From positions 1 to 45,007 of the forward strand of contig CALWXR010000019.1 of the NCBI GenBank assembly GCA_944385535.1: a DNA stretch of 45,007 nt, read 5' to 3'. The notes under the pieces are model-generated. The model made no database searches and was not told where the DNA came from. It saw only the letters and a list, made by a program, of their open reading frames with translations. The position numbers were made by a program, and so were the translations under genes. Source of the DNA: an uncultured Oscillospiraceae bacterium (GTDB lineage Bacteria > Bacillota > Clostridia > Oscillospirales > Oscillospiraceae). This document shows, in pieces, positions 4,660 to 17,292 of this stretch (positions are counted from its first letter, which is position 1; each line of letters opens with the position of its first letter).

Positions 4660-5769
4660 TTATTCCCAGTCGAATCCCCGGAATACCGGCTCGCCTGTGT
4701 ACCGGTTGGCCTGCCTGCTGCCCTGGAGCACCTCCAGAACGGCCTGGGCCATGGCCTCCTGCTCACACTCCCCGGGGTAGACCGAGATGGGGGCGATCCA
4801 GCCGCATCGGGCTTCCACGCCCTTGATAATGTCCGCGTAGATTATCAGGCCGCCGGTGAGCAGGATTCCGTCCACCTTTCCCTCCAGCACCGCCGCCATG
4901 GCGCCGATGGATTTACACAGCTGGTAGATCATGGCGTTCCAGACAGTGGCGGCCTTCTTGTCTCCCGACGCCGCCATGGCGTGGATTTTCGACGCGTCGG
5001 AGGTGCCGAAGTGGCTGACAAACCCGCCGGAACGGGACAGCATGGCCCGCATTTCCCCGGTGGTGTGGCCCTGATCCAGGTATTGCAGCACCTCCATAAT
5101 GGGAATGGAGCCCAGCCGGGTGGGGGTGAAGGGGCCGTCGCCCCCGGCGCCTTCCGTGCTGTCGATCATGCGTCCGCCTTTGTGGACGGTGATGGTAATG
5201 CCCCCGTCCACATGGCAGACGATCAGGTTCAGATCCTCGTAGGATCTTCCCATTTTTCCGGCGTGGATGGCGGCGATGCCCTTCTGATTCAGCACGTGGG
5301 TCTGGGCCCGGCGATAGAGTCCGGCAATGCCGGTGATCCGGGCGTAGTCCCACAGCTCGTCTACGTTGGTGGGATTGACGGTATAGGCGGGCTTTCCGTA
5401 TTCGTTTCCCAGGGCATAGGCAAGCATGACTCCCAGCTTCGCCGGGTGGTCGCTGCCGCCCTTGTCCGCGGCGGTATCCGCGTTCAGCCGCTGGTCAATT
5501 TCCATCACACCGGCCGCCTGAGAATAGGCGCAGCCGCCCCGGCCCACAAATACGTCCATATCCCCGGGGGTCAGCCCATGAGAGTGCAGAACGTCCAAAA
5601 TCACCTGCCTGCGCATGGGGAGCTGGTGGTTGGTGGTGGGATATTTCAGAAGCTCCGGGGCGTCGTGGAAGATGCTTTCGGTAAAAATATTATGTTCGTC
5701 TTGAAAGACGCTTACCTTGGTGGAGGTGGAGCCGGGGTTGATGATGAGCAGTTTCTTTGGGGAATGCAT
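4660..5769 (-). CDS. buk: Butyrate kinase
   Basis: ATP-dependent kinase of the acetokinase/ASKHA superfamily that interconverts butyryl phosphate plus ADP with butyrate plus ATP, the energy-yielding last step of one butyrate route. The 369-residue length is close to the usual 355. The N-terminus has the phosphate loop INPGSTSTKVSVF; later motifs include GRGGCAY, NPTNVDELWDYARITG, CHVDGGITI and the C-terminal LLTGGLIIY and YPGECEQEAMA. I chose ATG 5769 because AAGAAGG lies 8 nt upstream; an ORF open further upstream has no such site. No phosphotransbutyrylase (ptb) is next to it, which is unusual because ptb-buk is the common pair. Branched-chain acid kinase activity cannot be excluded. Confidence 0.93.
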   Translation of the reverse strand: MHSPKKLLIINPGSTSTKVSVFQDEHNIFTESIFHDAPELLKYPTTNHQLPMRRQVILDVLHSHGLTPGDMDVFVGRGGCAYSQAAGVMEIDQRLNADTAADKGGSDHPAKLGVMLAYALGNEYGKPAYTVNPTNVDELWDYARITGIAGLYRRAQTHVLNQKGIAAIHAGKMGRSYEDLNLIVCHVDGGITITVHKGGRMIDSTEGAGGDGPFTPTRLGSIPIMEVLQYLDQGHTTGEMRAMLSRSGGFVSHFGTSDASKIHAMAASGDKKAATVWNAMIYQLCKSIGAMAAVLEGKVDGILLTGGLIIYADIIKGVEARCGWIAPISVYPGECEQEAMAQAVLEVLQGSRQANRYTGEPVFRGFDWE

Positions 5770-5848
5770 GGTAAAAACCTTCTTTGCATAAAAAATTCGC
5801 TCCGGAGAAAGGGGGGCTCCGGAAACGCGCCGCTTTCTATCGGGTGTT

Positions 5849-5877
5849 ATCATACCACTTTTTTCCGCAAAAAGAAA
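5849..5877 (-). promoter_or_regulatory. Probable promoter of the buk operon
   Basis: On the - strand TATGAT (5854-5849) is preceded by TGG, an extended -10, with a poor -35 (TTTCTT, 5877-5872) 17 bp upstream. The leader to the buk start is about 75 nt. Confidence 0.45.
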
Positions 5878-5950
5878 GGGGGGGCTCACAGAATAAGAGC
5901 CGGAGATGATTTCCGGATGCCATTTCAAAGCAGGAAGCAATTCATTTACG

Positions 5951-6582: not shown

Positions 6583-7512
6583 ATGTCTGTTATGGATATT
6601 CTTGACAAGCGCGCCGCGTTCTCTTTTGAGGTGTTCCCCCCCAAGACCGACGTGGGCATGGAGAAATTGTGCGGTGAGGGCGGCGTGCTGGAGCAGCTGT
6701 ACACCCTGAACCCGGATTACATCTCCTGCACCTACGGCGCGGGCGGCACCAATGTGGGCAAGAACCTGGAGGTTCTGGACAAGATCCAGAAGGACGGCAA
6801 GTGCGTCCCCGTCACCCACTTCACCTGCATCGGCAACACCAAAGAGGGCATTAAGGAGCAGCTGCAGACTTATCTGGATCATGGCATCAACCATATGCTG
6901 GCTCTGCGGGGCGACCTGCCCTTCGGCTGGACCGGCACCGGCGGCGACCTGCACTACGCCACCGAGCTGGTAAAGTTCGTCCGTCAGGAGTTCGGCGACA
7001 AGTTCACCATCGCCGTGGCCGGTTCTCCCGAGGGCCACATTGCCTGCCGCTCTCTGGAAGCGGACATCGCCTTCCTGAAGCAGAAGCAGGACAACGGCGC
7101 CGACTACATCATGACTCAGCTGTGCTGGGATATGGATCAGTTCCGCTACTGGCTGGACGCCATCCGGGCCGCCGGTATCTGGATGCCCGTGGACGTGGGT
7201 ATCATGCCCATCCTGGATCAGGCCGCTACCATCAACATGGCCCTGTCCCGGAACGGCTGCGTCATGCCCCGGGAGCTGTGCGAGATCATCTCCAAGAACT
7301 GGATCTTCCCCAACCCCTTCGTCAAGGATCCCTTCGACGCCGACGTAGAGGGCAAGAAGGCCTCCTTCAAGGCTGCCGGCATCGAGTACACCATCCGTCA
7401 GATCGACGAGTACCGCGCCTGCGGCATCAACGGCATCCATCTGTATGCCCTGAACAAGTTCGACGACGTGGCCTACATCGCCAAGGCCGCCGGTCTGATC
7501 GACCTGATCTAA
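6583..7512 (+). CDS. metF: 5,10-Methylenetetrahydrofolate reductase
   Basis: Flavoprotein that reduces 5,10-methylene-THF to 5-methyl-THF, the last step of the methyl branch of the Wood-Ljungdahl pathway and also the methyl source for methionine. The 309-residue TIM barrel shows FSFEVFPPK near the N-terminus (catalytic Glu16), SCTYGAGGT, LALRGD and CWDMDQFRYW. GGAGG lies 9 nt before ATG 6583. It is the first gene of the carbonyl-branch operon, which argues for an acetogenic or C1-linked role rather than only methionine synthesis. No metV partner, usual beside metF in many acetogens, is in the window. Codon use is strongly biased to C/G-ending codons (AAG, CTG, GCC), suggesting high expression. 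Confidence 0.95.
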   Translation: MSVMDILDKRAAFSFEVFPPKTDVGMEKLCGEGGVLEQLYTLNPDYISCTYGAGGTNVGKNLEVLDKIQKDGKCVPVTHFTCIGNTKEGIKEQLQTYLDHGINHMLALRGDLPFGWTGTGGDLHYATELVKFVRQEFGDKFTIAVAGSPEGHIACRSLEADIAFLKQKQDNGADYIMTQLCWDMDQFRYWLDAIRAAGIWMPVDVGIMPILDQAATINMALSRNGCVMPRELCEIISKNWIFPNPFVKDPFDADVEGKKASFKAAGIEYTIRQIDEYRACGINGIHLYALNKFDDVAYIAKAAGLIDLI

Positions 7513-7620: not shown

Positions 7621-8385
7621 ATGCCTCATACCATTGCCGTGGCAGGAAAGGGCGGCGTGGGTAAAACCACCACCTGCGGCATGCTCATTGATTATCTGTG
7701 CAAGAAGAAGCAGGGCCCTGTCCTGGTGGTGGACGCCGACGCCAACAGCAACTTAAACGAGGTGCTGGGGGTGGAGGTGGAGACCTCCCTGGGCCAGATC
7801 CGGGAGGAAATGGCTCAGGCGGAGCTGAAGGGCACCATTCCCAAGGGAATGACCAAGGCGGACTACGCCGAGCTGAAATTCAACAACGCCCTGATTGAGG
7901 ACGACGATTTTGATATGCTGGTCATGGGCCGCACCCAGGGCAAGGGCTGCTACTGCTATGTCAACGGGGTGCTCCAGTCCCAGGTGGCCAAGTACGCCAA
8001 GAACTACACCTATGTGGTCATGGACAATGAGGCGGGCCTGGAGCATATCGCCCGGGGGACCCTGCCCCATGTGGACACCATGCTTTTGATCTCCGACTGC
8101 TCCCGCCGGGGTGTCCAGGCCGTGGCCCGGATCGCCGAAATGATCGGCGAAATGGAATTAAATCCCGGCCAGATGGGCCTGATTATCAACCGGGCCCCGG
8201 ATGGAAAGCTGGACGAGGGCGTCCGGGAGGAGATCGAAAAGCACGGCCTGAAGCTCTTCGGCGTGCTGCCCCAGGACGAGGCTGTGTACCGCTGCGACTG
8301 TGCCGGAGAGCCCTCCGCCAAGCTGCCGGACAGCGATCCTATGAAATCCCAGCTGAGAACCATCATGGCCGCCATCGGGCTGTAG
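7621..8385 (+). CDS. cooC: CooC/AcsF-type nickel-insertion ATPase
   Basis: MinD/SIMIBI-class P-loop ATPase that matures nickel enzymes of the pathway (CODH C-cluster or ACS A-cluster). The 254-residue protein has the deviant Walker A GKGGVGKTT at residues 9-17, a switch region VVDADANSN, and the metal-binding C-x-C pair CYC at 110-112 typical of CooC/AcsF. Purine-contact residues appear in INRAPDG. A GGAG site precedes ATG 7621. It lies between metF and acsD with acsB downstream, so here its client is most likely acetyl-CoA synthase, since no CODH gene is nearby. Choosing between the names cooC and acsF needs phylogeny. Confidence 0.9.
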   Translation: MPHTIAVAGKGGVGKTTTCGMLIDYLCKKKQGPVLVVDADANSNLNEVLGVEVETSLGQIREEMAQAELKGTIPKGMTKADYAELKFNNALIEDDDFDMLVMGRTQGKGCYCYVNGVLQSQVAKYAKNYTYVVMDNEAGLEHIARGTLPHVDTMLLISDCSRRGVQAVARIAEMIGEMELNPGQMGLIINRAPDGKLDEGVREEIEKHGLKLFGVLPQDEAVYRCDCAGEPSAKLPDSDPMKSQLRTIMAAIGL

Positions 8386-8469: not shown

Positions 8470-9411
8470 ATGGCTTTCACTCCCAAGACGGCTCCCTTCC
8501 GCGGCAAGATCAATGCCGTGACCCTGGGCGCCGGTGACAAGGCAATCGTCATCGGCGGCCAGAATGTGATGCCGTTCTACACCTTCGACGCACCCATCGA
8601 GAACGTGCCCAAGATCGGCGTGGAGATCTCTGACCTGGCTGGGGAATGGACTGCCCCCGCGCTGAAGGAATTTTACGCCGGCTGCGTCACCATGGCCGAC
8701 TACGCCAAGAAGGCTCAGACCATGCCCGGCGCGGATTTCCTGTGCCTGCACTTTGAGTCCGCCGACCCCAACGGCGCCAACCGGTCCGTTGCCGAGTGTG
8801 TGGCCGACGCCAAGGCGGTTGCCGAGGCCGTCACCATGCCCATTGTGATTATGGGCTGCAAGAACCTGGAAAAGGACGGCGAGCTGTTCTCCAAGATCGC
8901 CGAGGCCCTCCAGGGCAAGAACATCCTGGTTCTGTCCGCCAGAAGCGAGGACTACAAGACCGTGGGCGCGTCCGTGGCCCTGGCCTACGGCCAGAAGGTG
9001 GGCGCGGAGACCGCCGACGACATCAACCTGGCCAAGCAGCTGAACATCATGCTCAAGGGCCTGTCCATCAATCCCGAGAACATCGTTATGAACATCGGCA
9101 CCGCCGCCGTGGGCTACGGCTATGAGTACGTGGCCTCCACATTGGACCGGGTTCGTCTGGCCGCTCTGGAGCAGTCCGACGCCGACCTGCAGATGCCCAT
9201 CATCGCGCCTGTGTCCACCGACACCTGGGGCGTGAAGGAATCCACCGCCACCGAGGAAGACGAACCCGCCTGGGGCTGCGCCGAAGAGCGGGCCATCGAG
9301 ATGGAAGTCTCCACCGCCGCCGCCAACCTGACCGGCGGCGCCGACGCGGTGATTATGCGTCACCCCGCCGCCGTGGCTACCATCAGCAAGTTCATTACCG
9401 AACTGGTCTAA
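8470..9411 (+). CDS. acsD: Corrinoid iron-sulfur protein small subunit (acetyl-CoA decarbonylase/synthase delta)
   Basis: Small subunit of the heterodimeric corrinoid iron-sulfur protein, which carries the methyl group on cobalt between methyl-THF and acetyl-CoA synthase. The 313-residue TIM-barrel protein has the family start PFRGKINAVTLGAG and VIGGQNVMPFY, and later NIGTAAVGYGYEYVASTLDR and APVSTDTWGVKES. Family length is about 310-325. It has no iron-sulfur cysteine motif, as expected, because the cluster is in AcsC. A GGGGG-type site precedes ATG 8470. The next gene follows after 20 nt, in keeping with a tight 1:1 complex. Confidence 0.95.
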   Translation: MAFTPKTAPFRGKINAVTLGAGDKAIVIGGQNVMPFYTFDAPIENVPKIGVEISDLAGEWTAPALKEFYAGCVTMADYAKKAQTMPGADFLCLHFESADPNGANRSVAECVADAKAVAEAVTMPIVIMGCKNLEKDGELFSKIAEALQGKNILVLSARSEDYKTVGASVALAYGQKVGAETADDINLAKQLNIMLKGLSINPENIVMNIGTAAVGYGYEYVASTLDRVRLAALEQSDADLQMPIIAPVSTDTWGVKESTATEEDEPAWGCAEERAIEMEVSTAAANLTGGADAVIMRHPAAVATISKFITELV

Positions 9412-9431
9412 TCGGAAGGAGGATACATACA

Positions 9432-11708
9432 ATGGCTTTGAAAGGTCTTGACATTTTTAAGCTGTCGCCCAGGAAAAACTGTAAAGAGTGCGGCAGCCCC
9501 ACCTGTATGGCATTCTGCATGAAGGTGGCCCAGGGCTCCGTGTCCATCGACAAGTGCCCCTACTTCTCTGACGACGCCAAGGCAATGCTCAACGAGCAGA
9601 CCGCGCCTCCCATGAAAACCATCGCTGTGGGCGAGCACAAGCTGGGCGGCGAGACCGTGCTGTACCGGCATGAAAAGACCCTGGTGAATAAGAACCTGTA
9701 CGCTGTGGCCGTCAGCACCGACATGACCGCCGAAGAAGCGGACAAGAAGCTCTCTGATCTTCAGAAGGTGGACTACGAGCGCATCGGCGAGCGGATGTAT
9801 GTGGAGTTCGTGTTCGTCTCCAACACCCAGGCCGACCCCGCCGTGTACGCCGAGCTGGTGAAGAAGGCCGCCGCCACCGGCCGCTGCCTGATCCTGGAGT
9901 GCTGGGATGTGGAGTGCGCCAAGGCCGCTCTGGCGGCCGCCGGCAAGAACGTGATCCTGGACGGCGCGACCCCCGACAACTGGGAGGCCATGAACGCCGC
10001 TGCCAAGGAGGCCGGCGTGGTGCTGGGCGTGTACGCGGAGAACATCAGCGACCTGTATGACACCGTGAAGAAGCTGGAAGCCGCCGGCAACAAGGATCTG
10101 GTGCTGGACGTCACCGGCAAGACCGCTAAGGAGACCCTGGCCAACGCCGTGCTGGTCCGCCGCACCGCCATCAAGGACGGCGACCGGAGCTTCGGCTATC
10201 CTTCCATCGTGAACCTGGCCCGTCTGGCCAAGGGCGACGACCGGCTCCAGACCGCCTACGCCTCCATGTTCACCGAGAAGTATGCCTCCATCATCGTCAT
10301 GGAGAACATGACCTACGCCCAGGCCCTGCCTCTGTACGGCCTGCGCCAGAACATCTACACCGATCCTCAGAAGCCCATGAAGGTGGAGTCCAAGATCTAC
10401 CCCCTGAACGGCGCCGACGAGAACAGCCCCTGCGCCCTGACCGTGGACTTCGCCCTGACCTACTTCCTGGTCTCCGGCGAGCTGGAGCGTTCCAACCAGC
10501 CTGTGAACCTGATCATCACCGACGCTTCCGGCATGTCCGTTCTGACTGCCTGGGCCGCCGGCAAGTTCTCCTCCTCCACCGTGAAGAAAACCTTCGAGGA
10601 GCTGGACATTGAGAACAAGATCAAGAACCGCACCCTGATTATCCCCGGCAAGGTGGCCGTGATGAAGGGCGAAATCCAGGAGAAGCTGCCCGGCTGGAAC
10701 GTGGTAGTCGGCCCTCTGGAAGCGGTTCAGCTGCCCAAGTACATGAAGGACAAGGAGTACGAGGCCGCCGCCAAGGCCGCCCAGGCCGAAGCCGCCGCCA
10801 AGGCTGCCGCCGCGCCCAAGGAAGAGGTTAAGGAGCTGTCCTTCGAAGAGCTGCTGGCCACCAAGGTTCCCGAGATCAAGGTGGTGGACATGGGCGTAAA
10901 GTACAAGGGCCACAACCCCGAGAGCAAGACCTTCGTCACCATCGGCGAGCGGATCCACTGCATCTCCCCCGTCATCCGCAAGGCTATGGACGAGCGGGAT
11001 CCCGAGCCCATCCTGAAGCGTGCCGCTGAGCAGATCGCCGCCGGCGCCACCTACCTGGATGTGAACATCGGCCCCGCGGAGAAGGACGGCCCCGAGCGTA
11101 TGATGTGGGCGGTCAAGCTCCTGCAGGAGAACTTCAACAACGTTCCCCTGGCCCTGGACACCGCCAACAAGAAGGCCATCGAAGCCGGTATCAAGGTCTA
11201 CAACCGTACCAACGGCAAGCCCATCGTCAACTCCGCCGACGCCGGTTCCCGAATCAGCAACATTGACCTGGCTGCCGCCAACGACGCCATCGTCATCGCC
11301 CTGTGCTCTGCCGACGGCATTGCCAAGGACAACGAAGAGCGGATGAAGCACTGCCACAACATGCTGGAGCGGGGCCTGAGCCTGGGCATGGCCTCCGACG
11401 ACCTGTGGTTTGACCCCCTGTTCCTGGTGGTCAAGGGCATGCAGGACAAGCAGATGGACGTGCTGAACGCCATCAAGCTGTTCTCCGACGAGGGCCTGAA
11501 GTCCACCGGCGGTCTGTCCAACAACTCCAACGGCGCGCCCAAGGCTGTCCGTCCCATCATGGACTCCGCGCTGGTGGCCATGGCTATGATGCAGGGCCTG
11601 ACCTCCGCCATCGTCAACCCCTGCGACCTGCGGCTGATGGAGACCATCAAGTCCTGCGACATCTTCAAGAACCACGTGCTGTACTCCGATTCCTACCTGG
11701 ATCTGTAA
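9432..11708 (+). CDS. acsC-acsE: Fusion of corrinoid iron-sulfur protein large subunit (AcsC) and methyl-THF methyltransferase (AcsE)
   Basis: One uninterrupted 758-codon frame joins two normally separate proteins. Residues 1 to about 442 are AcsC: the N-terminal 4Fe-4S module has Cys17, 20, 25 and 42 (C-x2-C-x4-C-x16-C), followed by the TIM barrel and the corrinoid-binding domain (NLIITDASGMSVLTAWAAGKFSS region). Residues about 443-475 are an Ala/Lys/Glu-rich linker of repeated AAAK-like units. Residues about 497-758 are a full-length AcsE methyltransferase (IGERIHCISPVI, GATYLDVNIGP, LALDTAN, NSADAGSR), about 262 residues as in free AcsE. The GC content and codon use do not change across the join. 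The fusion would tether methyl donor enzyme and corrinoid acceptor. A missed stop is unlikely because both the frame and the linker are clean. Confidence 0.93.
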   Translation: MALKGLDIFKLSPRKNCKECGSPTCMAFCMKVAQGSVSIDKCPYFSDDAKAMLNEQTAPPMKTIAVGEHKLGGETVLYRHEKTLVNKNLYAVAVSTDMTAEEADKKLSDLQKVDYERIGERMYVEFVFVSNTQADPAVYAELVKKAAATGRCLILECWDVECAKAALAAAGKNVILDGATPDNWEAMNAAAKEAGVVLGVYAENISDLYDTVKKLEAAGNKDLVLDVTGKTAKETLANAVLVRRTAIKDGDRSFGYPSIVNLARLAKGDDRLQTAYASMFTEKYASIIVMENMTYAQALPLYGLRQNIYTDPQKPMKVESKIYPLNGADENSPCALTVDFALTYFLVSGELERSNQPVNLIITDASGMSVLTAWAAGKFSSSTVKKTFEELDIENKIKNRTLIIPGKVAVMKGEIQEKLPGWNVVVGPLEAVQLPKYMKDKEYEAAAKAAQAEAAAKAAAAPKEEVKELSFEELLATKVPEIKVVDMGVKYKGHNPESKTFVTIGERIHCISPVIRKAMDERDPEPILKRAAEQIAAGATYLDVNIGPAEKDGPERMMWAVKLLQENFNNVPLALDTANKKAIEAGIKVYNRTNGKPIVNSADAGSRISNIDLAAANDAIVIALCSADGIAKDNEERMKHCHNMLERGLSLGMASDDLWFDPLFLVVKGMQDKQMDVLNAIKLFSDEGLKSTGGLSNNSNGAPKAVRPIMDSALVAMAMMQGLTSAIVNPCDLRLMETIKSCDIFKNHVLYSDSYLDL

Positions 11709-11796: not shown

Positions 11797-12252
11797 ATGA
11801 ACATCACACAACCCTGGCAGTACTGCCTGGCAGCCGCCGGAGCGGCGCTGCTGCTAACCCTGGCGGTTCGGTCCGCCGCCGGGAAAAGAAAACGACTGGC
11901 CCAGCGGGATTTTACCCGCAGACTGGAGACCGTCCTGCAGCCAAGAGAGAATATTAAGCTGGTATGCCCTCAAAAGGGAGGACACTGTGTGCTCACTTCC
12001 CGCCGGCTGCTTCTGGAACAGGGGGAGAATTTTACCGCCATTCCCCTGACAAAGATCAAGCGGGTGCAGGGCTTCACCGCCGAAGGCAAAGCTACCACAT
12101 CCCCGGCAAAGATGCAGCGCCTGACGGTGAAGGCGGAGAAGGAGTATACCTTTACCCGTACCACAGAGGAATTCACCCAACTGGCAAAGCAGTTGAACGT
12201 CAGAAAAAAACCGGAGAAGAAGCCGGGCGGAAAAAAGACCGCCTCTTCTTAA
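11797..12252 (+). CDS. Small membrane-anchored PH-like protein, function unknown
   Basis: 151 residues. One N-terminal membrane segment (about residues 8-27) is followed by a basic stretch (GKRKRLAQR), a compact beta-rich domain (HCVLTSRRLLLEQGENFTAIPLTKIKRVQGF) that resembles bacterial PH-like domains, and a Lys-rich tail (KKPEKKPGGKK). I see no strong ribosome site before ATG 11797. It lies between acsC-acsE and acsB, so a role at the membrane near the ACS complex is possible, but nothing in the sequence proves it. The PH-like call is a fold guess from pattern. Confidence 0.65.
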   Translation: MNITQPWQYCLAAAGAALLLTLAVRSAAGKRKRLAQRDFTRRLETVLQPRENIKLVCPQKGGHCVLTSRRLLLEQGENFTAIPLTKIKRVQGFTAEGKATTSPAKMQRLTVKAEKEYTFTRTTEEFTQLAKQLNVRKKPEKKPGGKKTASS

Positions 12253-12315: not shown

Positions 12316-14442
12316 ATGAGTGTATTAACCGATCTAATCTACGGCGGCAGCAATGCCGTGGCCGGCCTGACGGAAGCCGCCGTCAACGACGCCATTGCCA
12401 AGTACGGCGCTGACAAGGAAATCGCCTTCCCCGACACCGCCTATTACTTCCCCACCATCTACGTGGCCACAAGTGTGAAGGTTCAGACCCTGGGGGATCT
12501 GACCGCCTGCGTGGGCGTGCTGAAAAGCCTGATTACCAACAAGGAGGATCTGGGCCAGGCCCTGAATGCGGGCCTTGCCACCGCGGTGGGCGCGGAGATT
12601 ATTGAGGGCCTGAAATATGTGGAGGGCGGAGATCCCTACGCCGCCGATTCCGGCATTGGCTTTGTGCCCGATCCCGTCATCCGCTCTCTGGGCGTGCCCC
12701 TGGTCACCGGAGATATCCCCGGCGTGGCCGTGGTGCTGGGCAAGTCCGAAAAGGACGAGGACGTGGTCAGCGTGGTCAAGGACTATCAGTCCAAGGGCCT
12801 GCTTACCTTCCTGGTGGGGGACGTGATCGAGCAGTGCGCGGAAGGCGGCGTGAAAATGGGCCTGGAGTACCGGGTGGTGCCTCTGGGCCACGACGTCACC
12901 TCTGTGATCCATGTGGTCACCGTGGCCATTCGGGCCGCCCTGATCTTCGGCAACATTCAGCCCGGGGATCTGGCGGGGCTGCTGGATTACACCAAGAACC
13001 GGGTTCCCGCCTTTGTCAATACCTTCGGGCCCATTGACGCGGTGATGGTATCCGCCGGAGCGGGCGCCATTGCCCTGGGCTTCCCAGTGGTGGTGGACAT
13101 CGACCTGGCGGAGAACCAGGTGCCCGGCGCTCTGGAATCTGTGGTCATCCACAGCGAGACGGTGAAAAAGTCCCTGGAGCTGCGGGGCATCAAGATCAAG
13201 GTGAAGGAGCTGCCCATTCCCGTGGCCTTCGCCGCCGCCTTCGAGGGTGAAATCATCCGCAAGAGCGATATGCACAACGAATTCTGGTCCTCCAAAAACC
13301 CCACCGCCGAGCTGGTGATTATGCGGGAAATGAACCAGGTGGAGGATCACAAGATCACCATCGTAGGCCCCGATCTGGACGAAGAAAAGGACCTGGCCCT
13401 GGGCACCTTTGTAGAGGTGGCGGGCCGGAAGATGCAGGAGGACTTTGAATCCGTCATCGAGCGGAAGTTCCACGCCTGGTTCAACTACATGGAGGGCGTC
13501 ATGCACACCGGCCAGCGCAATCAGGTTCGGGTTCGGGTGTCCAACGCCGCCTTTGAAGCCGGTCTGCGGCTGAAGGATTTTGCCGAAGTGCTCTACACCA
13601 TGATTATGGACGAGTTTGACGCGGTGGTGGACAAGTGCCAGATCACCTTGTACACCGAGCCCGCCCAGGCGGAAGCCTTCCGGGACGAGATCGCCATGCC
13701 CAGATATAACCAGCGGGACGACCGCCTGGCCTCCATGACCGACGAGGCGGTGGACCGCTACTACACCTGCATCCTGTGCCAGTCCTTCGCCCCCGCCCAC
13801 TGCTGCGTGGTCACCCCGGAGCGGCTGGGCCTGTGCGGCGCGGTCTCCTGGCTGGACGCCAAGGCCACCTACGAGCTCAACGCCAACGGCCCCTGCCAGC
13901 CCATTGTGAAGGAGGGCTGCACCGACGAGCGCACCGGCCGGTTCGATTCTGTGGATCAGGCCATCAAGGACGCCACCCACGGGGCGGTGGAGACGGTGAC
14001 CTTGTACTCCATTCTGGAGGATCCCATGACCTCCTGCGGCTGCTTCGAGTGTATCTGCGGCATTGAGCCCATGTCCAACGGCTTCATCGTGGTGAACCGG
14101 GAATTCAAGGGCATGACTCCCGCGGGCATGACCTTCGGCGAGCTGGCCTCCTGCACCGGCGGCGGCGTTCAGACCCCGGGCTACATGGGCCACGGCCGTC
14201 ACTTCATCTCTTCCAAGAAGTTCATCGCAGCGGAAGGGGGCATTGAGCGGATCGTCTGGATGCCCAAGGAGCTGAAGGACGATGTGGCGGCGAAACTGAA
14301 CGCCACGGCCAAGGAGCTGTACGGCATTGAGAATTTCACCGACTATATTGCCGATGAAACCGTTACCACCGACTGCGAGGAGCTGCTTTCCTGGCTCACC
14401 GAGCGCAACCACCCGGTGCTGGCCATGGAGCCGCTGATGTAA
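12316..14442 (+). CDS. acsB: Acetyl-CoA synthase (CO-methylating), bacterial type
   Basis: Nickel enzyme that assembles acetyl-CoA from a corrinoid-bound methyl group, CO and CoA. The 708 residues align end to end with Moorella AcsB, about 20 residues shorter at the N-terminus. All A-cluster ligands are present: Cys485, Cys488, Cys497 and Cys507 for the 4Fe-4S/proximal nickel site (YTCILCQSFAP...LCGAVSW), and Cys574-Gly575-Cys576 for the distal nickel (MTSCGCFEC). The C-terminal domain motif TPGYMGHGRHFISSKKF is intact. The N-terminal CODH-docking domain, absent from archaeal CdhC, is retained. GGGAGGAAT lies just before ATG 12316. No acsA/cooS gene is nearby, so the CO supplier must be encoded elsewhere or come from another source. 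Confidence 0.97.
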   Translation: MSVLTDLIYGGSNAVAGLTEAAVNDAIAKYGADKEIAFPDTAYYFPTIYVATSVKVQTLGDLTACVGVLKSLITNKEDLGQALNAGLATAVGAEIIEGLKYVEGGDPYAADSGIGFVPDPVIRSLGVPLVTGDIPGVAVVLGKSEKDEDVVSVVKDYQSKGLLTFLVGDVIEQCAEGGVKMGLEYRVVPLGHDVTSVIHVVTVAIRAALIFGNIQPGDLAGLLDYTKNRVPAFVNTFGPIDAVMVSAGAGAIALGFPVVVDIDLAENQVPGALESVVIHSETVKKSLELRGIKIKVKELPIPVAFAAAFEGEIIRKSDMHNEFWSSKNPTAELVIMREMNQVEDHKITIVGPDLDEEKDLALGTFVEVAGRKMQEDFESVIERKFHAWFNYMEGVMHTGQRNQVRVRVSNAAFEAGLRLKDFAEVLYTMIMDEFDAVVDKCQITLYTEPAQAEAFRDEIAMPRYNQRDDRLASMTDEAVDRYYTCILCQSFAPAHCCVVTPERLGLCGAVSWLDAKATYELNANGPCQPIVKEGCTDERTGRFDSVDQAIKDATHGAVETVTLYSILEDPMTSCGCFECICGIEPMSNGFIVVNREFKGMTPAGMTFGELASCTGGGVQTPGYMGHGRHFISSKKFIAAEGGIERIVWMPKELKDDVAAKLNATAKELYGIENFTDYIADETVTTDCEELLSWLTERNHPVLAMEPLM

Positions 14443-15363: not shown

Positions 15364-17292
15364 ATGAGCAAGGTAACCTTCCAAATTGAAGAAGGAACCC
15401 CGGTTTGCGTGGAGTGCAACGCCGGGGATAATCTGCTGGAGCTGGCCCGTCGGGTCAATGTGGCCATCGACGCGCCCTGCTCCGGCAACGGCTCCTGCGG
15501 CAAGTGCCGGGTGAAGCTTTTGGAGGGGACGGTAGAGTCTCCCCAAAGCCGCCATATTACCGGCGAGGAATACGAGGACGGCTGGCGTCTGGCCTGCTGC
15601 TCCCGGGTGGTGGGGGACTGCGTTGTATTCGTCCCCGACATTGCCAGCGCCTACCAGTCCCGGATGAAAACCGCCGACCTGAGCAGTCCTCAGGAGGTGG
15701 CCATCTTCGAAGCCTGCGAGCAGGGTCTGGCGGAAAGCGGCATCCACTTTGTCAACCGGTTCCGGTCTGTGGTGGTCACCATGACGCCCCCCAGCCTGGA
15801 GGACACCATGCCGGACAACGAGCGGTTCAGCTGGGCACTGGAAGAGGCCTTGGGGGTTGACAAGGTGGAGATCCCCTTCCCGGTGATGCGCTCTCTGGCT
15901 TCCAAGCTTCGGGAACATGACTTTACGGTGCGGGTTAAGGGCGTGCTTACGGAAGCCGGATTCCGCTGCATGGAGATCTCCGACCCGGAGGATCGGGTCA
16001 TTGCCGGGGCTGCCATCGACATCGGCACCACCACTGTGACCATGGTGCTGACGGATCTGGAAACGGGAAAGCTGCTGGCAAAAGGCTCCTCCGGCAACGG
16101 CCAGATCCGCTACGGCGCGGACGTGATCAACCGGATCATCCAGCAGAGCCGCCCGGGAGGACGGAAAAAGCTCCAGGACGCGGTGATCCGGGAGACCCTG
16201 AACCCCATCCTGGTGAAGCTGTGCCAGAGCGCGGGAATCACCGCCAGAAGCATTTTGCAGCTGAGCGTGGCGGCCAACACCACCATGAACCACCTGTTTG
16301 TGGGGGTGGACGCGGAGCCGGTGCGGGTGGAGCCTTACATCCCCAGCTTCTTTTCCTGGGAGGATCTGACGGCCCATGACCTGAAGCTGACGGCCAACCC
16401 CCTGGCCCCGGTGCGCATTGCCCCAAACATCGGCTCCTACGTAGGCGGGGACATTACCGCGGGCACCCTGGCCTCCGGTATCTGGAACATGGAGGAAATG
16501 AGTCTGTTCATCGACCTGGGCACCAACGGAGAGATCGTATTCGGCAACCGGGATTTCCTGGTCAGCTGCGCCTGCTCCGCCGGTCCCGCCTTCGAAGGCG
16601 GCGACATCTCCTGCGGCATGCGGGCCACAGACGGAGCGATAGAGGCCTGCGAGATTGACAAGGATACCATGGAGCCGGAGCTTACCATCATCGGCGATGA
16701 GGGCCAGCGGGCGGTGGGCATCTGCGGCAGCGGCATCATCGACCTGATTTCCGAGCTGTTCCGCTGCGGGATCATCAACGCCAAGGGCCTGTTTGTCCGG
16801 GAAGGACGGCGGGTTCTGCGAGATCAGCACGGTATGGGCCGGTATGTGCTGGTGTTCCCCCAGGACAGCGAGACTGGCCGGGAGGTGTCCATCAACGAGG
16901 TGGACATTGACAACTTCATCCGGGCCAAGGGCGCGGTGTTCTCCGCCATTGACACCCTGCTCCAAAGTGTGGACATGACCGTGGACATGATCGACAAAGT
17001 GTACGTAGCCGGGGGCATTGGCAGCGGCATCAATATGAAAAACGCGGTGAACATCGGCATGTTCCCGGACGTGGAGCTGGAAAAGTTCCGCTATATCGGA
17101 AATTCCTCCCTGGCCGGGGCCTATGCCATGGTCATGAGCGACGAGGCGGCGGCCAAGACCGGGGAAGTGGCCGCCAACATGACCTATCTGGAGCTGAGCA
17201 CCTACCCCGGGTATATGGACAGCTTTGTGGCAGCCTGCTTCCTGCCCCACACCGACGCCCGCCTGTTTCCCCACAGCCGCCAGGAGTGCTGA
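15364..17292 (+). CDS. acsV: Reductive activator of the corrinoid iron-sulfur protein (RACo-type ASKHA protein)
   Basis: ATP-dependent activator that returns accidentally oxidised Co(II) in the corrinoid protein to active Co(I). The 642-residue protein has an N-terminal plant-type 2Fe-2S domain (Cys39, Cys45, Cys48 in CSGNGSCGKC, with Cys78 or 79 as fourth ligand), a linker/middle domain (to about residue 210) and a C-terminal ASKHA ATPase domain with AIDIGTTTVTMVL, ANTTMNHLF, FIDLGTNGEIV, GPAFEGG, ICGSGIIDLISEL and VAGGIGSGI. Family length is 600-650. AGGAAAGGA lies about 9 nt before ATG 15364. Related ASKHA activators also serve corrinoid methyltransferases, but the acs neighbours make AcsC/AcsD the likely client. 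Confidence 0.93.
   Translation: MSKVTFQIEEGTPVCVECNAGDNLLELARRVNVAIDAPCSGNGSCGKCRVKLLEGTVESPQSRHITGEEYEDGWRLACCSRVVGDCVVFVPDIASAYQSRMKTADLSSPQEVAIFEACEQGLAESGIHFVNRFRSVVVTMTPPSLEDTMPDNERFSWALEEALGVDKVEIPFPVMRSLASKLREHDFTVRVKGVLTEAGFRCMEISDPEDRVIAGAAIDIGTTTVTMVLTDLETGKLLAKGSSGNGQIRYGADVINRIIQQSRPGGRKKLQDAVIRETLNPILVKLCQSAGITARSILQLSVAANTTMNHLFVGVDAEPVRVEPYIPSFFSWEDLTAHDLKLTANPLAPVRIAPNIGSYVGGDITAGTLASGIWNMEEMSLFIDLGTNGEIVFGNRDFLVSCACSAGPAFEGGDISCGMRATDGAIEACEIDKDTMEPELTIIGDEGQRAVGICGSGIIDLISELFRCGIINAKGLFVREGRRVLRDQHGMGRYVLVFPQDSETGREVSINEVDIDNFIRAKGAVFSAIDTLLQSVDMTVDMIDKVYVAGGIGSGINMKNAVNIGMFPDVELEKFRYIGNSSLAGAYAMVMSDEAAAKTGEVAANMTYLELSTYPGYMDSFVAACFLPHTDARLFPHSRQEC

Follow-up and report, generated by a model that had tools for sequence, protein, structure and literature searches.

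For the last methyl step of the acetate-forming Wood-Ljungdahl pathway, the corrinoid/iron-sulfur protein (CFeSP) has to meet its methyltransferase (MeTr, AcsE), and in the solved complexes that we found the two are separate chains. The relevant complex is that of entries 4djd, 4dje and 4djf, which we take to be the Moorella thermoacetica CFeSP-MeTr complex; the Moorella complex entries hold 6 AcsC chains in 3 entries and 8 MeTr chains in 4, suggesting equal numbers. A methyl-THF-binding TIM barrel and a corrinoid domain do occur in one chain in MetH, the cobalamin-dependent methionine synthase. The corrinoid domain of CFeSP is described in PMC12289521 as a mobile element that serves both acetyl-CoA synthase (ACS) and the methyltransferase. 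According to a study of human gut genomes carrying CODH and ACS genes (PMC11338639), where genes were assigned by KO, 78% of Oscillospirales genomes (7/9 genera) had no acsE that could be detected, and Faecousia accounted for 65% of the CODH transcript reads within Oscillospirales.

Here we describe an uncultured Oscillospiraceae bacterium in which AcsC, the large subunit of CFeSP, and AcsE are encoded as one polypeptide. Within open-access PubMed Central we found no published description of an AcsC-AcsE fusion, let alone one that treats it as routine in this family. The fusion of these two well-known proteins is apparently undescribed.

The fused frame and the acs operon

The window, by which we mean the whole analysed stretch of 45,007 nucleotides, comes from contig C19 of a 2.85 Mb draft genome (C, G and L numbers are our handles for contigs, genomes and loci). 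At 9432-11708(+) it contains a single frame of 758 codons, from ATG to TAA, with AAGGAGG, a good ribosome-binding site, immediately 5' of the ATG. An earlier note on this DNA had read the frame as complete AcsC plus full AcsE, and this reading held, as both halves score above the cut-offs of their NCBIfam families. Residues 1-441 (9432-10754, +) match the AcsC family NF003195 with 514 bits where 306 would suffice, covering positions 1-446 of the 450 in the profile, and residues 500-758 (10929-11705, +) match the AcsE family NF040758 with 469 bits against 370, covering positions 3-261 of 261; the AcsE domain thus measures 259 residues, not 262 as first given. Pfam finds FeS, CdhD and Pterin_bind in the protein, the first two in its AcsC half. 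The folds of CFeSP and MeTr are matched as well, by the AcsC half to 9fzy_F and 4djd_C and by the AcsE half to 1f6y, 2e7f and 2ogy, in each case by sequence and by fold.

The AcsC half presumably comprises a 4Fe-4S domain, a TIM barrel and a C-terminal corrinoid domain. The 4Fe-4S cysteines pointed out earlier (Cys17/20/25/42) are present in the window protein and invariant across an alignment of 28 fused rows that includes it, and the corrinoid domain, predicted to bind a corrinoid, is found and conserved. At the position of the catalytic Asn199 (Moorella numbering) the window protein has N, as do 1f6y and 2e7f, whereas the N199A mutant 2ogy has A. The AcsE half is a predicted methyl-THF:CFeSP methyltransferase; that it might be degenerate was rejected, since the catalytic Asn is retained and dN/dS is low. 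An antisense frame of 755 aa at 9408-11675(-) was taken for a by-product of high GC3.

The gene order around the fusion is metF, cooC-like, acsD, acsC-acsE, small ORF, acsB, YcxB-like ORF, acsV. Methylenetetrahydrofolate reductase, MetF (6583-7512, +), is recognized by PF02219, scores below the cut-off of TIGR00676 and has the same position in many relatives. The following ATPase gene (7621-8385, +; PF01656) matches only generic CbiA/ParA models, its operon position is conserved, and we take it, by its position, to be a cooC-like nickel-insertion ATPase. The small subunit of CFeSP, AcsD (8470-9411, +; NF040759, 471 bits), lies directly before the fusion, and acetyl-CoA synthase, AcsB (12316-14442, +; NF040764, 992 bits), and the corrinoid activation/regeneration protein, AcsV (15364-17292, +; NF040756, 924 bits), lie after it. 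The small ORF between the fusion and acsB (11797-12252, +) encodes 151 aa with no Pfam match, and a relative (55%) was found in the same place only in L022 among 24 loci. Near the operon there is also an acetokinase-family ORF (4660-5940, -; PF00871, 63 bits), possibly a butyrate or acetate kinase.

A separate acsE elsewhere in the same genome was considered and rejected, because at E<=0.001 the whole genome yields the fusion and no other match to either gene. On contig C43, cooS has another cooC-like gene and another copy of acsB (L193, 4427-6544) beside it, and fhs is on contig C18; CODH (CooS), ACS, CFeSP, MeTr, MetF and FTHFS are all present in the genome. The two acetyl-CoA synthases are 55% identical, one standing with the fusion and acsV and the other beside cooS, and one acsC/acsE was found for the two. 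Cys-rich stretches, presumably the A-cluster ligands, are retained in both AcsB copies. The family as a whole has two acs operon types, cooS-cooC-acsB-acsD-acsC-acsE (L196, L197) and (metF-)cooC-acsD-acsC-acsE-acsB-acsV (L195, L219); all fusions whose flanks were checked are of the latter type.

The junction between AcsC and AcsE

Among 36 genomes of the same genus, a stop-free frame from AcsC into AcsE was seen in 26 and separate genes in none (0/36); nine were uninformative, having no match, fragments or nothing but generic methyltransferases, and in G003 the frame continues from AcsC across the linker until the contig stops. The junction was also uninterrupted in 79 of the best 80 named loci out of 525, a set that leans to close relatives and whose count is not independent of the same-genus count, since some genomes are in both. 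Several Candidatus Faecousia and other Oscillospiraceae MAGs are among the best named relatives, so that the organism, judged by similarity, is probably a Faecousia. One fused locus (L040) belongs to a record titled as strain Pseudoflavonifractor sp. MSJ-30 and not as a MAG. A break of the frame in the linker, which the earlier note had regarded as decisive against a fusion, was found in one MAG only (L069, CAMGCA010000009.1), where a TAG stands at the linker start and the AcsE frame is intact downstream. This TAG may reflect either an error in sequencing or a genuine natural separation of the halves.

Between the two halves we measured 58 residues, considerably more than the 35 or so of the earlier estimate. 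The linker had been called Ala/Lys/Glu-rich, and its first 21 residues are indeed Ala-rich (residues 442-462, 10755-10817, +; 13 Ala), but the remaining 37 form a conserved segment (residues 463-499, 10818-10928, +), hereafter the arm, which is found in fusions only and is predicted to fold with AcsE. Across the 104 frames without interruption, which encode 82 distinct proteins, the length of the junction varied from 41 to 63 residues, and the Ala-rich part is the length-variable one; in L183 and L184, with junctions of 41 and 46 residues, it is much shrunken while the arm is retained. No Pfam family matched the linker or arm above its cut-off. When the linker was searched for outside complete fusions, the best 40 of 162 matches consisted of other fusion loci (incomplete or re-fetched) and weak matches with E of 0.3-0.8.

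The median dN/dS was 0.225 for the whole linker, 0.277 for its arm part, 0.114 for AcsE and 0.08-0.23 for AcsC, as estimated from 400 of 1250 pairs at 85-95% identity, drawn from 68 of 102 complete fusions. By these codon comparisons the linker is under purifying selection. Its GC3 (0.88) is like that of the flanking parts (0.88 and 0.91). These values bear on the possibility that a missed stop or a frameshift between two normal genes created the frame artificially, a concern that arises because the genome to which the window belongs is a draft in 121 contigs. An artefact of this kind would hardly recur in the same frame in nearly all of the best named loci, from many projects, and in the same-genus genomes counted above, nor would it leave a linker with such dN/dS and GC3; we regard it as extremely improbable and rejected it on the recurrence of the fusion across relatives and the selection on its linker.

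The structure of the junction was predicted by AlphaFold2. The model of the full protein (85-row alignment) had a mean pLDDT of 85.7 and a pTM of only 0.51, and the relative placement of the AcsC and AcsE halves is therefore not fixed by the model. It contained a helix at 442-460, a poorly ordered hinge at 461-470 (mean pLDDT 51), a short helix at 471-477 and then the better-ordered arm. When residues 464-758 were folded without AcsC, the pLDDT was 90-92 for 474-503 and the pTM was 0.89, so the arm appears to be part of the AcsE side and not to need AcsC. Solved MeTr structures aligned with this 295-residue model over 262-269 columns, suggesting that the arm is probably without a counterpart in solved MeTr; some MetH matches were longer (to 296 columns), with an rmsd of about 7.5 A. 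Taken with the retention of the arm in L183 and L184, the helix, low-order hinge and AcsE-side arm lead us to see in the junction two elements, a short rod with a hinge that belongs to the corrinoid domain and an anchor that sits on AcsE, as far as the models can tell.

This predicted architecture weakens the swinging linker proposed in the earlier note. A long flexible arm that channels methyl groups would fit the Ala-rich stretch, which is like known swinging-arm linkers, but that stretch is predicted to be helical over 442-460, the hinge spans only about 10 residues, the remainder is ordered with AcsE, and L183 and L184 retain little of the Ala-rich part. We therefore consider a channelling arm of this kind quite unlikely.

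Another alternative is that the gene is fused while the protein is not, with an internal start or proteolysis at the hinge freeing AcsE and the fusion mainly coupling expression. Consistent with this, the arm of the window protein has a Met codon at residue 487, which is present in 17 of the 28 fused rows, order is predicted to be low at 461-470, and L069 shows that a stop at the linker start can be followed by an intact AcsE frame. However, the other 11 of the 28 rows lack a Met in that alignment column (L100 and L182 have another Met nearby), so the internal start is not conserved, and purifying selection on the linker also speaks against a freed AcsE. This reading seems unlikely to us; we prefer a protein made at full length, as the sequences lead us to infer.

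Distribution and origin of the fusion

Among the genomes sampled, all fusions belong to a single family and, within it, to one group of 12 genera, Faecousia and Avoscillospira among them; a 13th genus shows the fusion in part. The samples were draws of 400 genomes from the family, 295 from the order, 391 from the class and 398 from the phylum, all within the phylum of the host; DNA was read for some of the matches, and for most phylum matches the verdict came from the match table alone. In the family, 116 of the 400 genomes (own included) matched at E<=1e-30, and in 38 of these 116, from 12 genera, the match was stop-free, in a single frame and covered residues 1-757 or 1-758. In the 13th genus (g85) the frame covers 1-645 and is ended by the contig end. 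Sixty family loci read as DNA comprised 14 fused, 37 separate (20 genera), 1 broken and 8 with one gene only, and no genus contributed both fused and separate loci. The linker of L185 is present, its AcsC frame being broken, and in G066 and G070, two of the genomes behind the single-gene loci, the other gene is on another contig.

In all 37 unfused family loci acsC and acsE are separate neighbours, and the same holds outside the family for every locus that has both genes and was read as DNA (38/38; 18 from the class, 18 from the phylum and 2 from the order, the order loci L223 and L224 belonging to another family). Matches as such were found in 14 of 295 order genomes at E<=1e-60, in 41 of 391 class genomes, many of them by generic methyltransferases only, and in 129 of 398 phylum genomes. 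An open-frame length of 710-780 aa was tried as proof of fusion and rejected, as DNA revealed a stop between the genes in many loci with such a value (e.g., L141, L144, L203, L206-L209, L211-L218). The DNA of relatives supports the earlier claim of a genuine AcsC-AcsE fusion set against separate genes elsewhere. In fused genera other than that of the window (L171-L184), AcsE is 86-91% identical to the window protein (L183, 79%) and AcsC 64-73% (L183, 58%); by these identities the methyltransferase half would change much more slowly than the AcsC half.

A protein that is filed as AcsC but also holds AcsE could produce a gap in acsE counts, and the fusion may explain the one reported for gut Oscillospirales in PMC11338639. 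Faecousia would then be among the genera of that study in which acsE was undetected, with the fusion as the cause. If so, these bacteria probably have the methyl-transfer step, and recognizing AcsE inside AcsC-labelled proteins matters for annotation.

We analysed the origin of the fusion with trees of 82 chosen rows, 27 of them fused (65 of the 82 in the concatenated tree, 17 being left out), from quick searches without bootstrap. In the AcsE tree all 27 fused rows form one clade (SH-aLRT 99) with the unfused L147, from genome G129, adjacent. In the AcsC tree, by contrast, the fused rows fall into two groups, and four rows with an EWKKS linker (L100/L179/L181/L182) lie with the unfused L147, apart from the other 23. 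In the concatenated tree the fused rows group with L147 as a clade (SH-aLRT 99). In both the AcsC and the AcsE tree, five rows sampled at class level from other families (L106-L109, L119) sit among the rows of this family, which makes operon transfer between families likely and complicates the picture of the origin.

G129, the closest unfused relative, has the order metF-cooC-acsD-acsC-acsE-acsB-acsV with separate genes, the acsE ATG lying 67 nt from the acsC stop. This is an arrangement from which the loss of one stop gives the fusion, or the product of a later split. Most likely, the fusion has a single origin in such an operon, where the acsC stop that kept the two neighbouring genes apart was lost. 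Two independent fusions, one in the main group and one in the EWKKS-linker group, with or without a later loss in G129, are an alternative that we find rather unlikely but still worth weighing. The AcsC tree favours it by joining the EWKKS rows to the unfused L147, a grouping that the AcsE data do not reject (p-AU 0.307), and the first halves of the linkers differ between the groups. However, the single fused clade of the AcsE tree contradicts it, and all fused rows together are not rejected by the AcsC data (p-AU 0.136, with fused rows plus L147 as one clade having the higher likelihood) or by the concatenated data (p-AU 0.35). Moreover, the arms of the two groups have alike ends, with cross-group matches at E 0.002 (L185, L199), and for this reason a single origin is the simpler reading.

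Proposed working and comparison with known systems

We consider it probable that the gene encodes a tethered methyltransferase-corrinoid protein, in which AcsC is joined to its own methyltransferase in a single polypeptide. With AcsD, the fusion would form the usual CFeSP-MeTr assembly, but the C-terminus of the mobile corrinoid domain would carry the MeTr at all times, via the helix, the short hinge and the MeTr-side arm. AcsE would take the methyl group from methyl-tetrahydrofolate, the product of MetF, and hand it on to the cob(I)alamin of the tethered corrinoid domain; this domain would then move to acetyl-CoA synthase with the MeTr still attached, and AcsV would re-reduce the corrinoid when it is inactivated. 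Methyl transfer would be mostly intramolecular, and the tether would presumably raise the local concentration rather than open a channel. Against a need for the tether, unfused relatives in the same family manage without one.

The earlier note had also held that a fusion fixes methyl donor and acceptor at 1:1. This is true by construction, but the ratio is not new, as the chain counts in the Moorella complex are similar; by analogy with these counts, the fusion would keep rather than create it. For structure and kinetics work, the fusion is a natural 1:1 tethered version of the pair.

A bolder version, which we offer tentatively and as somewhat less than an even prospect, is that in this clade of common gut Oscillospiraceae a transient encounter has become an obligate tethered enzyme, with the new arm anchoring MeTr by the corrinoid domain, loading being intramolecular and first-order, and one particle serving both AcsB proteins despite their 55% identity. 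If true, this would be a natural experiment on how far bimolecular encounter limits the pathway.

Several known systems resemble the fusion in part. The fusion family of HgcAB-like proteins (NF043039), in which the partner is a ferredoxin, matches residues 315-445, the corrinoid domain, weakly, at 52 bits against a cut-off of 285. The folate domain of MetH is matched by the AcsE half, but the fusion scores far under the cut-off of the MetH family TIGR02082 (92 versus 1010.85 bits). MetH also differs in its corrinoid protein and its methyl acceptor, has its domains in the reverse order and carries a homocysteine domain in addition. Relatives in the family that keep acsC and acsE separate, such as G129 and L147/L219, share the operon order and are 83% similar in AcsE and 64% in AcsC, but there the acsC stop is followed by the acsE ATG with no arm sequence. 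The CFeSP-MeTr complex (4djd/4dje/4djf) is a further counterpart, its AcsC and MeTr chains being matched by the two halves in both sequence and fold; what are separate polypeptides there are here one chain with a 58-residue junction.
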